Part shown: positions 26,355 to 61,117 of the stretch, piece by piece | Layout of the letters: the number at the start of each line of letters is the position of its first letter | How positions within the stretch are numbered: position 1 is the stretch's first letter | Assembly (NCBI RefSeq): GCF_024298845.1 | Contig: NZ_CP101156.1 | Location: forward strand, 1,922,001 to 1,986,000 | Source: Natronosalvus amylolyticus | GTDB lineage: Archaea; Halobacteriota; Halobacteria; Halobacteriales; Natrialbaceae | DNA length: 64,000 nt | Direction: 5' to 3' | Position numbers and translations under genes: made by a program | The notes under the pieces: generated by a model | The model's input: only the letters and a program-made list of their open reading frames with translations | The model's database searches: none | Told to the model about the DNA's origin: nothing

Positions 26355-27506
26355 ATGACGACATCACGACGCACGACACTGAAAGCACTCGGTACCCTGG
26401 GCGCGGGGGCCGTCCTCGCGGGCGGAAGCGTCTACGCAGTGGGCGAGCACGATGACGACGAACGAGAGGACGAGAACGACGAGCATAACGGCGCACCACA
26501 GGCGGGAATCCGAGTCGTACACGCCGCACCGGACGCACCGAACGTGGACGTCTACGTCGACGACGAACAGGTCCTGACCGACGTCCCCTACGAGGAGGTG
26601 AGTCCGTATCTCGAGGTCGAGCCCGGAACCTACTCGGTGAAAGTGACGGCTGCCGGTGACGAGGACACCGTCGTCTACGACGAAGAGCTCGAGGTCGGCG
26701 AGGCCTTTTACACGCTCGCCGCGATTGGCGAACTCGAGGCGGACACCTTCGAAGTGCTGGCGCTCACCGACGCCGGTTCCTCGCTGGTCAGACTCCTCCA
26801 CGCCTCGCCGGACGCCCCCGACGTCGACGTCCGTGAAAGCGAAACCGGCGCAGCGCTGTTCGAGACGGTTGGCTTCGGCGAAAGCACGAATTACGTGGCC
26901 GTCCCCGCCGGCTCGTACACTCTCGAGGTCGTCCCCTCGAGTGAAGCGAACGGTGTCGATGACGACAACGGCATTGACGACGATGAAAATGGCGTCGATG
27001 ACGATGAGAACGGCGTCGAGGACGAGAACGACATCGATGACGATGAAAACGGTGTCGAGGACGATGAAAATGGCGTCGATGACGATGAGAACGGCGTCGA
27101 TGAGGACGATGACGAAGTCGGGATGGACGACGATGCCGAGGATGTCGACACCGATGACGAAAACGACGTCGACGATGAGAACGGTGTCGACGATGACGAC
27201 GAGATGGATGACGAGGATGACATGGACGAACACGATGACGATGTCGTTGCCAGCGTCGACGTCGACCTCGAGGCTGGCACCGCGTACACTGCCTTCGCCA
27301 TCGGCTACCTCGAGCCACCGAACGGGGAGGATCGCGAGTTCGCCGTCAACCTCGCCGTCGACGGGCCAGAGTCACTCGAGGACGAGGTAGACGACGAGAA
27401 CGGCATCGACGATGATGACGAGATGGACGACGATGACGACATGAACGACGACACTGACGACGATGACGACATGAACGACGACACTGACGACGAAAACGAT
27501 TACTGA
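26355..27506 (+). CDS. Secreted DUF4397-domain protein with an Asp-rich repeat insertion
   Basis: A 383-residue exported protein. The N-terminus has a twin-arginine signal (SRRTTLKALG followed by a hydrophobic stretch to about residue 30). Two DUF4397 domains follow, each with the signature HAAPDAPNVDVYV or HASPDAPDVDV: the first spans about 50-139 and the second starts near 143. The second domain is interrupted at about 198-296 by roughly 100 residues of near-tandem DDENGV units, then resumes with VDVDLEAGTAYTAFAIGYL. A similar acidic repeat forms the C-terminus (about 344-383). The TATA box at 26321 supports the ATG at 26355. The function of DUF4397 is unknown; the repeats could bind Ca2+. 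Confidence 0.85.
   Translation: MTTSRRTTLKALGTLGAGAVLAGGSVYAVGEHDDDEREDENDEHNGAPQAGIRVVHAAPDAPNVDVYVDDEQVLTDVPYEEVSPYLEVEPGTYSVKVTAAGDEDTVVYDEELEVGEAFYTLAAIGELEADTFEVLALTDAGSSLVRLLHASPDAPDVDVRESETGAALFETVGFGESTNYVAVPAGSYTLEVVPSSEANGVDDDNGIDDDENGVDDDENGVEDENDIDDDENGVEDDENGVDDDENGVDEDDDEVGMDDDAEDVDTDDENDVDDENGVDDDDEMDDEDDMDEHDDDVVASVDVDLEAGTAYTAFAIGYLEPPNGEDREFAVNLAVDGPESLEDEVDDENGIDDDDEMDDDDDMNDDTDDDDDMNDDTDDENDY
26949..27242 (+). repeat. Degenerate tandem repeat encoding Asp/Asn/Gly-rich units
   Basis: About 290 bp built from variants of a 21-24 bp unit (GACGATGAAAATGGCGTCGA and relatives) inside the DUF4397 gene. The copies differ mainly at third positions, indicating age or selection on the protein. 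The unit encodes DDENGVD-like motifs. Confidence 0.75.
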
Positions 27507-27831: not shown

Positions 27832-28107
27832 CTAGGCGTCGACGTAGCGATTTACCCACTCCTGTCGCCGCTCGAGTTCCCGTTTTCCCTTCGGCGTCAA
27901 CGCGTAGTAGTTCGTCCGACGATCCAGTTGACCCTTTTCGATCAGTTCGTGTTCGACCAGTGTATCCAGGTTCGGATACAGCCGACCGTGTGTGACCGGC
28001 TGGTCGATGTACTCGTTGATATCGTCGAGAATCCGCTGTCCCGACGGACGGTCCATCCCTGCGATGACGTACAGCAAATCGCGCTGGAATCCGGTTAATT
28101 GGTCCAT
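27832..28107 (-). CDS. PadR-family transcriptional regulator
   Basis: A 91-residue winged-helix protein consisting of only the PadR DNA-binding domain: FQRDLLYVIAGMDRPSGQRIL, then THGRLYPNLDTLVEHELIEKG and the wing RRTNYYALTPKGKREL. The short length (no C-terminal dimerisation domain) is usual for one haloarchaeal subgroup. A TATA-like GTATAAC is about 40 nt upstream. It is divergent from the NUDIX gene, which it might control. The ligand is unknown. Confidence 0.85.
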   Translation of the reverse strand: MDQLTGFQRDLLYVIAGMDRPSGQRILDDINEYIDQPVTHGRLYPNLDTLVEHELIEKGQLDRRTNYYALTPKGKRELERRQEWVNRYVDA

Positions 28108-28285: not shown

Positions 28286-28843
28286 ATGCCGGCCGACCCA
28301 CTCGCCTGGGAAACCCTCGAATCAGACGTCGCCTACACCTGTCCCGGGTTCGACATCATTACGCAGACCGTACGCCTCCCAGACGGCGAGCGAACCGATT
28401 TCGATTTTCTCTCGGAGCCACCCAGCGTCTGCATCCTTCCGTTCACCAACGACGGCGACGTCGTCTGTATCGAGGAGTGGCGACAGGCCGTGGGCCGGCT
28501 CAACCACGGGTTGCCGGTCGGAACGACCGAACCCGATGATGAAGACCTCGAGACGGCTGCCAGACGCGAACTCCGGGAGGAAACCGGCCACGAAGCGACC
28601 ACTATCGAACGATTGGTCACCGTGGAACCAGCCAACGGACTCGCCGACTCAGTAATGCACTTTTTCGTCGCTCGAGGCTGTGCGCCGACGGGCGAACAGC
28701 AACTCGATGCCGACGAGAGTATCCGAGTGGCCCCACAGCCCTACGACGACCTGCTCGAGGCCGTCCGTGCAGGCGACGTTCGCGACGGGCGGACGGTGCT
28801 CGCAGTGTCACACTACGAGTTGCGAACGACGGAAGCACAGTGA
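28286..28843 (+). CDS. NUDIX hydrolase, ADP-ribose pyrophosphatase-like
   Basis: A 185-residue protein whose Nudix box is ETAARRELREETGHEA with the preceding Gly-rich part, giving the REx2EE metal-binding core. The N-terminal segment (DIITQTVRLPDGERTDF, then a beta-strand reading VCILPFTNDGDVVCIEEWRQ) is like ADP-ribose pyrophosphatases, which hydrolyse ADP-ribose to AMP and ribose-5-phosphate. The ATG gives MPADPLAWETLES. The substrate is inferred from the EEWRQ pattern only. Confidence 0.85.
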   Translation: MPADPLAWETLESDVAYTCPGFDIITQTVRLPDGERTDFDFLSEPPSVCILPFTNDGDVVCIEEWRQAVGRLNHGLPVGTTEPDDEDLETAARRELREETGHEATTIERLVTVEPANGLADSVMHFFVARGCAPTGEQQLDADESIRVAPQPYDDLLEAVRAGDVRDGRTVLAVSHYELRTTEAQ

Positions 28844-33590: not shown

Positions 33591-33675
33591 GCCACAGATC
33601 GCCCTACTCGAGACACCTCCCGCCACAGATCGCCCTACTCGAGACACCTCCCGCCACAGATCGCCCTACTCGAGG
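33591..33675. repeat. 31-bp tandem repeat, two full copies and a third partial, at the purB 3' end
   Basis: The 31-bp unit beginning GCCACAGATCGCCCTACTCG occurs at 33591-33621 and 33622-33652 with no differences. A third copy begins at 33653 and runs about 23 bp into the last codons of purB, including its stop at 33666-33668. The repeat is therefore a recent duplication of the purB 3' end. Being contiguous with no spacers, it is not a CRISPR array. Confidence 0.85.
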
Positions 33676-59809: not shown

Positions 59810-61117
59810 CTACCGGTTCGTCTCGCCGTCGTCCCGACTCGAGACGATGCGTCGTTCGTTCATGGCGGTTGGAGCCGGATTATCGAACGTCGACCAGTCG
59901 TCGTCCATCTCCGCGTCAGTGAGCAGGCACTCCTCGAGGCGTTCGATCACGGCCTCGAGATCGAGGTCGTGGCCGATAAGTGCGAGTCGGCTCTCGCGGT
60001 CACCCCACTGCTCGTCCCAGGCGAGATCGGGTTGCCCGGCGCGGTAAGTCTCTTGCTGGCGTTCGGAAAAGCTCGCTATCCAGCGGCCAGTGACCTCGAG
60101 GCTGGTCTCCGTGCCGGCCAGACTCGTCGTGATCGCCGCTCGTTCCCGCCCGGCGATCCAGGTGAGCCCTTTCGCCCGAACGAGTCCCGCGGGCGGGTTC
60201 TCGAGAAACGCGAGAAATCGTTCGGGATGGAACGGACGGACGCGGTGGAACGTTTCGACCGTGATGCCGTAGCGTTCGGGTGGGTGTGTGTGATCGTGGT
60301 CGTGGTCATCGTGGTCGTGGTCATCGTGGTCGTCCTGTTCATGCCCGTGTGCATGGCCCTCGTGCTCGTCACCACTCTTTGTGTGTTCGTGGCCGTCAGC
60401 GGCCGTCGATTCGATCGCTTGCTTCCAGCCAGCAGCCGCCCTCGCCGCCGAGAAGTCGAACAGTCCCGTCTCGAGCACGGCATCGGGCTCGAGGTCGCCG
60501 TACTCGGTGGTGACGACAGGGGCGTTCGGCTGAAGTGTCTCGAGGAGGGCGACGACGGCATCGCGTTCGGCCCCGTCCACGAGGTCGCACTTGTTGAGTA
60601 CCAGCAGGTCACAGAACTCGACTTGCTCGAGGAGGAGGTCAGCAAACGGCCGCGTACCATCTTCGTCGGGACCTTGCTGTGTTGGTTCGAGGTCGTCGCC
60701 GTCGACGAACGTGTCGTGGAACTGGCGAGCGTTGACGACGGTGACGATGGCGTCCAGGTCGTAGATGCCGCCAGGAGGGCCCCGGACGAACTGGTGAGCG
60801 ATGGGTTCGGGTTCGCCCACGCCAGAGGCCTCGACGATCAGGTACTCGAAATCGTAGCGCTTCCAGAGCCTGACCACCGACCGGGAGAGTTCGCCACCGA
60901 GGCTACAACAGATACAGCCGTTCTCGAGCGCCAGTACCTCCTCGCCGGTTTCGAGGTCGGTGTGTGCCTCCACGAGGTCCGCGTCGACGTTGACCGAGCC
61001 GACGTCGTTGACGACGACGGCGATTTCGCGGTCGCTCGCGCGCTCGAGAACCGTCGAGAGGAGGGTCGTCTTACCCGCACCGAGTGCGCCACAGAGGATC
61101 GTGACTGGAACTGCCAT
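59810..61117 (-). CDS. CobW/ZNG1-family metallochaperone GTPase with His-rich segment (second of pair)
   Basis: A 435-residue G3E GTPase. The P-loop is GALGAGKT (residues 10-17), the metal site ENGCICCSL (Cys68, 70, 71), and the Walker B/NKCD regions follow. A His/Asp-rich segment (about 246-285, for example HDDHDHDDHDHDHTH) precedes the C-terminal CobW domain. Such proteins deliver zinc, cobalt or nickel to targets. It starts directly after the stop of the partner gene with no gap. The His-rich stretch suggests metal buffering. Confidence 0.92.
   Translation of the reverse strand: MAVPVTILCGALGAGKTTLLSTVLERASDREIAVVVNDVGSVNVDADLVEAHTDLETGEEVLALENGCICCSLGGELSRSVVRLWKRYDFEYLIVEASGVGEPEPIAHQFVRGPPGGIYDLDAIVTVVNARQFHDTFVDGDDLEPTQQGPDEDGTRPFADLLLEQVEFCDLLVLNKCDLVDGAERDAVVALLETLQPNAPVVTTEYGDLEPDAVLETGLFDFSAARAAAGWKQAIESTAADGHEHTKSGDEHEGHAHGHEQDDHDDHDHDDHDHDHTHPPERYGITVETFHRVRPFHPERFLAFLENPPAGLVRAKGLTWIAGRERAAITTSLAGTETSLEVTGRWIASFSERQQETYRAGQPDLAWDEQWGDRESRLALIGHDLDLEAVIERLEECLLTDAEMDDDWSTFDNPAPTAMNERRIVSSRDDGETNR

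Follow-up and report, generated by a model that had tools for sequence, protein, structure and literature searches.

Acidic peptide insertions in conserved folds have been described in haloarchaea, including an insertion in the Halobacterium CysRS and an N-terminal extension of the Haloarcula ferredoxin (PMC3787623). These extra segments are proposed there to serve flexibility, solvent exposure, and salt adaptation. Archaeal Borg elements carry fast-evolving, in-frame tandem repeats that make intrinsically disordered regions, and GAT (Asp) is among the codons enriched in them (PMC9879509). AlgF of Pseudomonas aeruginosa and the PepT1/PepT2 ectodomain each contain two tandem beta-sandwich domains, and both are reported to be protein-interaction modules (PMC10641220, PMC4597091). 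The AlgF paper names the PepT ectodomain as the closest structural class and describes AlgF as a mediator of protein interactions (PMC10641220). The PepT paper reports electrostatic binding of trypsin that is abolished at 0.5 M salt (PMC4597091). When we searched the literature for haloarchaeal proteins with acidic or disordered insertions, we found general precedents only.

We analyzed a 64,000-nucleotide stretch of the Natronosalvus amylolyticus genome (the window), which encodes a putatively secreted protein with a long acidic tract inside its second DUF4397 domain (Table 1). The tract resembles the haloarchaeal insertions in that an acidic segment, missing from homologues, lies within a conserved fold. 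It differs from the CysRS-type insertions, as they are described in PMC3787623, in being built from tandem repeats, in its size (about 98 compared with about 20 residues), in its hypervariable length between species, in its matching C-terminal tail, in its presumed secretion, and in the sequon-rich versions found in relatives. The tract shares with the Borg repeats of PMC9879509 the fast evolution of in-frame repeats in a segment predicted to be disordered, but it lies on a chromosomal-size contig of a haloarchaeon, belongs to a single gene, sits inside a folded domain, and has a strong negative-charge bias. What it adds to the known acidic insertions is repeat-driven turnover inside a folded domain of a protein with a predicted export signal, a matched tail, sequon versions, and a lead on the DUF4397 fold.

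Table 1. Features of the DUF4397 gene and its conserved neighbors (positions in the window)
Feature	Position	Strand	Basis
DUF4397 ORF, 383 aa	26355-27506	+	ORF list translation
Putative Tat-type signal sequence, residues 1-29 (SRRTTLK, hydrophobic stretch, VYA)	26355..26441	+	translation
First DUF4397 domain, about residues 46-141	26490..26777	+	Pfam PF14344, 1.2e-40; AF2 pLDDT about 90 or more
Second DUF4397 domain, N-terminal part, residues 142-198 (strands to 186-194)	26778..26948	+	domain matches, family profile, AF2
Acidic repeat insertion in the domain 2 hairpin, residues 199-296 (7 + 2 DDDENGV-type units around a DDDEVGMDDD landmark)	26949..27242	+	Tandem Repeats Finder, unit pattern; predicted disordered
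Second DUF4397 domain, C-terminal part, residues 297-341 (strands 299-305, 310-316, 330-336)	27243..27377	+	profile, AF2
Acidic C-terminal tail, residues 342-383 (one DDENGI unit), and stop codon	27378..27506	+	translation, unit pattern, AF2
PadR-like transcriptional regulator, convergent	27832..28107	-	Pfam PadR, 3.7e-13
NUDIX hydrolase gene, second conserved neighbor	28286..28843	+	Pfam NUDIX, 4.2e-13

The protein matches DUF4397 (PF14344) with 139.2 bits against a curated cut-off of 30.6 (E 1.2e-40). The source genome holds three DUF4397 genes with six domain matches. The secreted status of the window protein rests on the N-terminal SRRTTLK motif and the hydrophobic stretch that follows it; these features suggest export, and the Pfam TAT_signal match (E 0.16) is under its cut-off. 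There is no cysteine in the whole 383-residue protein and therefore no lipobox.

A sequence-only reading of this DNA had placed a 98-residue tract within the second DUF4397 domain, and our alignment bears this out to the residue. A profile built from insert-less relatives aligned over its positions 1-150 on the N-terminal side of the tract and over 147-196 on the C-terminal side (row L002). Both flanks are thus in register, and the second domain is truly interrupted. The tract contains 45 D, 16 E, 10 N, and 9 G among its 98 residues, with no lysine or arginine. Clear DDDENGV-type units number seven in the first half and two in the second; outside them the tract is acidic but degenerate, and it includes a landmark that does not belong to the repeat. 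Tandem Repeats Finder reported periods of 21, 60, and 81 bp at 26948-27142. The similar repeat noted earlier at the C-terminus is present as an acidic tail that carries one DENG-type unit. We searched the 4.2-Mb genome with a degenerate DNA pattern for DENG[VIM][DE]D and found six matches, all within this ORF: five fall in the loop and the sixth in the tail. The opposite strand and a reversed control pattern each gave none genome-wide, so the confinement of the matches to one gene is far above chance.

We used an AlphaFold2 model of the window protein, built from a 22-row alignment, to examine how the tract sits in the fold. The model shows two beta-sandwich domains whose core blocks have pLDDT values mostly of 85-96. 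Values are about 44-51 in the loop and about 43-52 in the tail, and both segments are predicted to be disordered. In the model predicted for L053, a relative that lacks the insertion (52% identical), the strands are unchanged and an eight-residue turn at 201-208 stands where the window protein has residues 195-298. These models place the insertion at the beta-hairpin turn of domain 2. The window model (residues 46-337) matched the PepT2 ectodomain (5a9i_A) with Z 15.8 and rmsd 3.2 over 174 aligned residues, and the insert-less model matched it with Z 15.6 over 173 residues. The AlgF domains gave Z 10.0/9.4 with the window model and 9.9/8.9 with the insert-less model. Because the two models match PepT2 and AlgF about equally well and share their strands, we predict that the domain stays whole despite the loop, which bears on a structural question that the sequence-only reading had raised.

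In the predicted models, DUF4397 in its tandem form thus has both the fold and the two-domain arrangement of AlgF and the PepT ectodomain. This gives a structural lead for a domain that was seldom mentioned in the literature we searched. Searches of the PDB with the single sequence or with the 22-row profile returned no sequences at E<=10, a result with which distant kinship stays compatible. We also found no transporter or alginate partner for the window protein. Cholesterol-binding cytolysin domains, HGSNAT, and transthyretin appeared in the fold lists as well, and we took them to reflect only a common sandwich fold.

We compared the insertion across relatives by searching 125 genomes of the family, of which 105 had a match. 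Of the match rows listed, 30 were taken as loci and 80 more were added. We aligned 149 distinct ORFs, 124 of them from Natrialbaceae, and omitting two with alignment scores <420 left 122. ORFs G042 C130 and G123 C180 were omitted as duplicates of L054 (loop and tail) and L053 (neither). A loop was defined as at least 15 inserted residues in the domain-2 hairpin and a tail as at least 20 residues; L097, with 12 residues inserted in the hairpin, was scored as loop-free. By these definitions, 33 of the 122 ORFs carry a hairpin loop, a fraction that is not an unbiased prevalence because the last 20 rows sampled leaned to partial matches and long frames. The loops span 17-104 residues and their repeat layouts differ strongly. 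These results support the variable surface loop proposed from the sequence, which an equal insertion length in all homologues would have spoken against. An insertion in a DUF4397 domain is therefore not peculiar to the window and is a recurrent trait of Natrialbaceae. None of the eight loci from other families in the order (L190-L197; best matches and a small sample) had a hairpin insertion.

Insertions in the alignment are confined to a few loops and the tail. A loop near position 80 is extended in 14 of the 122 ORFs, its domain-2 equivalent (by at least 10 residues) in 12, and the tail in 51, while the domain-1 hairpin equivalent to our insertion site is extended in none. One sub-group (L136-L141, L143, L145-L150, L054, L055) carries acidic insertions at several sites at once (positions about 80, 146, and 176, and the tail), each as long as 130 residues at most.

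The sister species N. hydrolyticus (AArc-curdl1, contig JAOPJZ010000002.1) provided the closest comparison. Its protein is 97% identical to the window protein over residues 1-197, and 5 of the 197 codons that precede the loop differ non-synonymously, as does 1 of the 45 that separate it from the tail. The loop itself is rearranged: seven units, the landmark, and two units in the window compared with three units, the landmark, and five units in N. hydrolyticus (99 and 97 residues, with the flanking Ala counted). Several of the loop units are identical in DNA, which indicates recent duplication. Congeneric orthologues at 73-75% identity (L009-L011) have loops of 34-56 residues without a DENG unit.

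Every loop protein also has a tail (33/33); 18 proteins have a tail only and none has a loop only. Loops share more 4-mers with their own tails (0.108) than with foreign tails (0.032), and 0 of 5000 permutations, which ignore kinship, gave a value as high. A loop's own tail ranked first in only 11 of the 33 cases. A tree of the core columns requires five changes in the loop, and only three independent loop-tail pairs fall on starred branches. These events are too few to make the coupling significant beyond kinship, so we dropped statistical coupling on the tree and claim co-occurrence only.

Gene neighborhoods indicated that the loop marks mainly one syntenic group of orthologues. A padR gene adjoins 30 of the 33 loop genes, 23 in short loci and seven in longer stretches (L162, L176-L181). 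It was not found beside L040 or L109 in their longer stretches (L174, L175); L106, where 1,074 bases downstream were read, also lies outside the 30. PadR is rare beside loop-free genes: it adjoins 1 of 89 in short loci (L142), 87 of which had at least 700 bases downstream, and 1 of 9 in loci with longer flanks (L182, in place of L050), the other eight being L165, L167, L183, L184, L185, L187, L188, and L189. These three counts rest on differing flank lengths. L050/L182 and L142 are thus members of the PadR-locus group without a hairpin insertion. In two genomes a second, diverged DUF4397 gene adjoins the first (L176 in G014, L097 in G015); in G014 this second gene separates the loop-type gene from padR.

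The composition of the loops is strongly biased. Together, the 33 loops contain 1790 residues, among them 554 D, 332 E, 103 N, 9 R, and 2 K, and the D+E fraction ranges from 0.28 to 0.68. The D:N ratio is 554:103 but the E:K ratio is 332:2, though GAY>AAY and GAR>AAR are one kind of transition. This imbalance suggests selection against lysine in the loops. By contrast, 195 of the 1323 tail residues of loop-free relatives are K. Two points weigh against reading this as selection on charge: haloarchaeal proteins are generally low in lysine, and the lysine-rich tails come mainly from one clade. This clade of 12 loop-free members (L110, L112, L114-L120, L122, L123, L144) has long Lys/Glu-rich polyampholyte tails, whereas the tails of loop-bearing relatives are nearly free of lysine.

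N-glycosylation sequons occur in 8 of the 33 loops. In several of these nearly every Asn lies in a sequon, beyond what shuffled sequences give (five sequons with five Asn in L029; six with eight in L027). Sequon density in loops and tails is correlated (rho 0.63), and loop D+E is inversely related to sequons (rho -0.66, n 33), with kinship uncorrected and part of the latter a trivial trade-off. Abstracts describe haloarchaeal N-glycans that contain sulfated sugars and uronic acids. It is therefore conceivable that carboxylate charge is exchanged for N-glycan charge. In its fullest form, this idea would make loop and tail one coupled, concertedly evolving polyanionic brush on a single AlgF/PepT-like scaffold, charged by Asp/Glu repeats in some lineages and by N-glycans on Asn-Glu-Thr repeats in others. 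We regard that form as doubtful. If true, the exchange would be a natural experiment in how haloarchaeal secreted proteins gain solubility.

The first reading of the tract raised possible Ca2+ or Mg2+ binding. EF-hand loops have 12 residues with the pattern DxDxDGxIxxxE, and the calcium repeats of thrombospondin type 3 (TSP3) and dockerin follow DxDxDGxxDxxD, with cysteine in TSP3. The window unit shares the DxDxNG spacing of all three, and the DDDENG units could accordingly be read as calcium or magnesium loops at the cell envelope that become ordered once metal is bound. The window loop contains four DxDx[DN]G motifs (shuffle mean 1.01, 68/5000 as high) and three DxDx[DN]GxxD motifs (mean 0.44, 35/5000), and the N. 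hydrolyticus loop contains six of the shorter form; these counts speak for metal binding. The unit departs from the known loops in having its hydrophobic residue at position 7 rather than 8, in lacking the acidic ligand at position 12, in having no Cys, and in not being conserved in orthologues. We found no EF-hand-like 12-residue pattern in the window loop and only one instance of the long TSP3/dockerin pattern (853/5000 shuffles as high). Neither the loop nor the tail matched a Pfam family at E<=10. Just 5 of the 33 loops contain DxDx[DN]G, and L009-L011 lack it, so specific metal sites are not a conserved property. The model, built without metal, predicts a disordered loop. A link to calcium scarcity in soda lakes is not simple either, since Saliphagus, which is neutrophilic (PMC10963439), bears a sequon-rich loop. 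The motif's rarity among loops, the Pfam searches, and the pattern counts led us to reject metal loops as the main reading, and we judge them improbable; loose binding of cations by carboxylates is possible. The tract is better described as part of a hypervariable, acidic loop-plus-tail, predicted to be disordered, than as calcium loops.

We consider it somewhat probable that loop and tail form a disordered polyanionic surface built by slippage, a salt-adapted bristle on an AlgF/PepT-ectodomain-like scaffold. On this view, a secreted protein with two beta-sandwich domains would have had a solvent-exposed beta-hairpin turn expanded by tandem duplication, and the resulting loop would be matched by an acidic, disordered tail of like composition. 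Slippage or recombination would quickly add and remove repeat units, while selection would preserve acidity, freedom from lysine, and flexibility and leave the exact sequence and repeat unit free. The hydrated, charged bristle would then maintain an AlgF/PepT-like interaction module in a soluble, extended state and prevent it from sticking, at the cell envelope or beyond it, in near-saturated salt. By analogy with other halophilic insertions, the loop may improve solubility or function at high salt. Since PepT loses trypsin binding at 0.5 M salt, a simple charge-docking role is improbable in a haloarchaeon. The two PadR-locus relatives without a loop count against the bristle, as they imply that the loop is dispensable over evolution. 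They fit an effectively neutral insertion, in which slippage in a GAY/GAR-rich gene swelled a tolerant surface turn and only harmful variants were purged, as do the free variation in length, unit, and layout and the restriction of insertions to a few loops and the tail. The near absence of lysine from loops, set against the lysine-bearing tails of loop-free relatives, and the retention of a tail in every loop protein argue otherwise. So does the unextended domain-1 turn, though plain intolerance could also explain it. We think neutrality rather unlikely. Diversifying selection on a variable surface segment (for example against viruses, or in adhesion), with N-glycans in some lineages, would account for the rapid rearrangement between sister species and for sequon enrichment in loops or tails of some relatives such as L029 and L027. 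It is very unlikely given that composition is held acidic and hydrophilic, that 25 of the 33 loops have no sequon, and that phase variation was not seen: frames were open in the search rows, and the comparison is one between species. On the bristle reading or any other, insert-less, acidic-repeat, and sequon-repeat versions coexist among relatives. Together they make up a natural series, largely from a single syntenic locus and with a single fold, for following how a folded domain acquires, reshuffles, and retains a disordered charged segment.

Three further features are recorded here. A second DUF4397 gene in the genome (L001:922-2094, minus strand; G000:C1, about 2757000) encodes two DUF4397 domains and a plastocyanin/azurin-type copper domain (Pfam 4.4e-14). 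The fusion connects DUF4397 with an electron-transfer domain; the signal is followed by a Cys, which suggests that the paralogue is a lipoprotein. Elsewhere in the window, a perfect 31-bp tandem repeat of 2.7 copies (33591-33674) lies between genes that we take to be SDR-like and purB-like, and the final, incomplete copy runs into the 3' end of the purB-like ORF. On the minus strand, a 15-bp repeat at 60293-60342 encodes a linker rich in His and Asp, DDHDHDDHDHDHTH, within the ORF at 59810-61117, presumably for a CobW-like GTPase.
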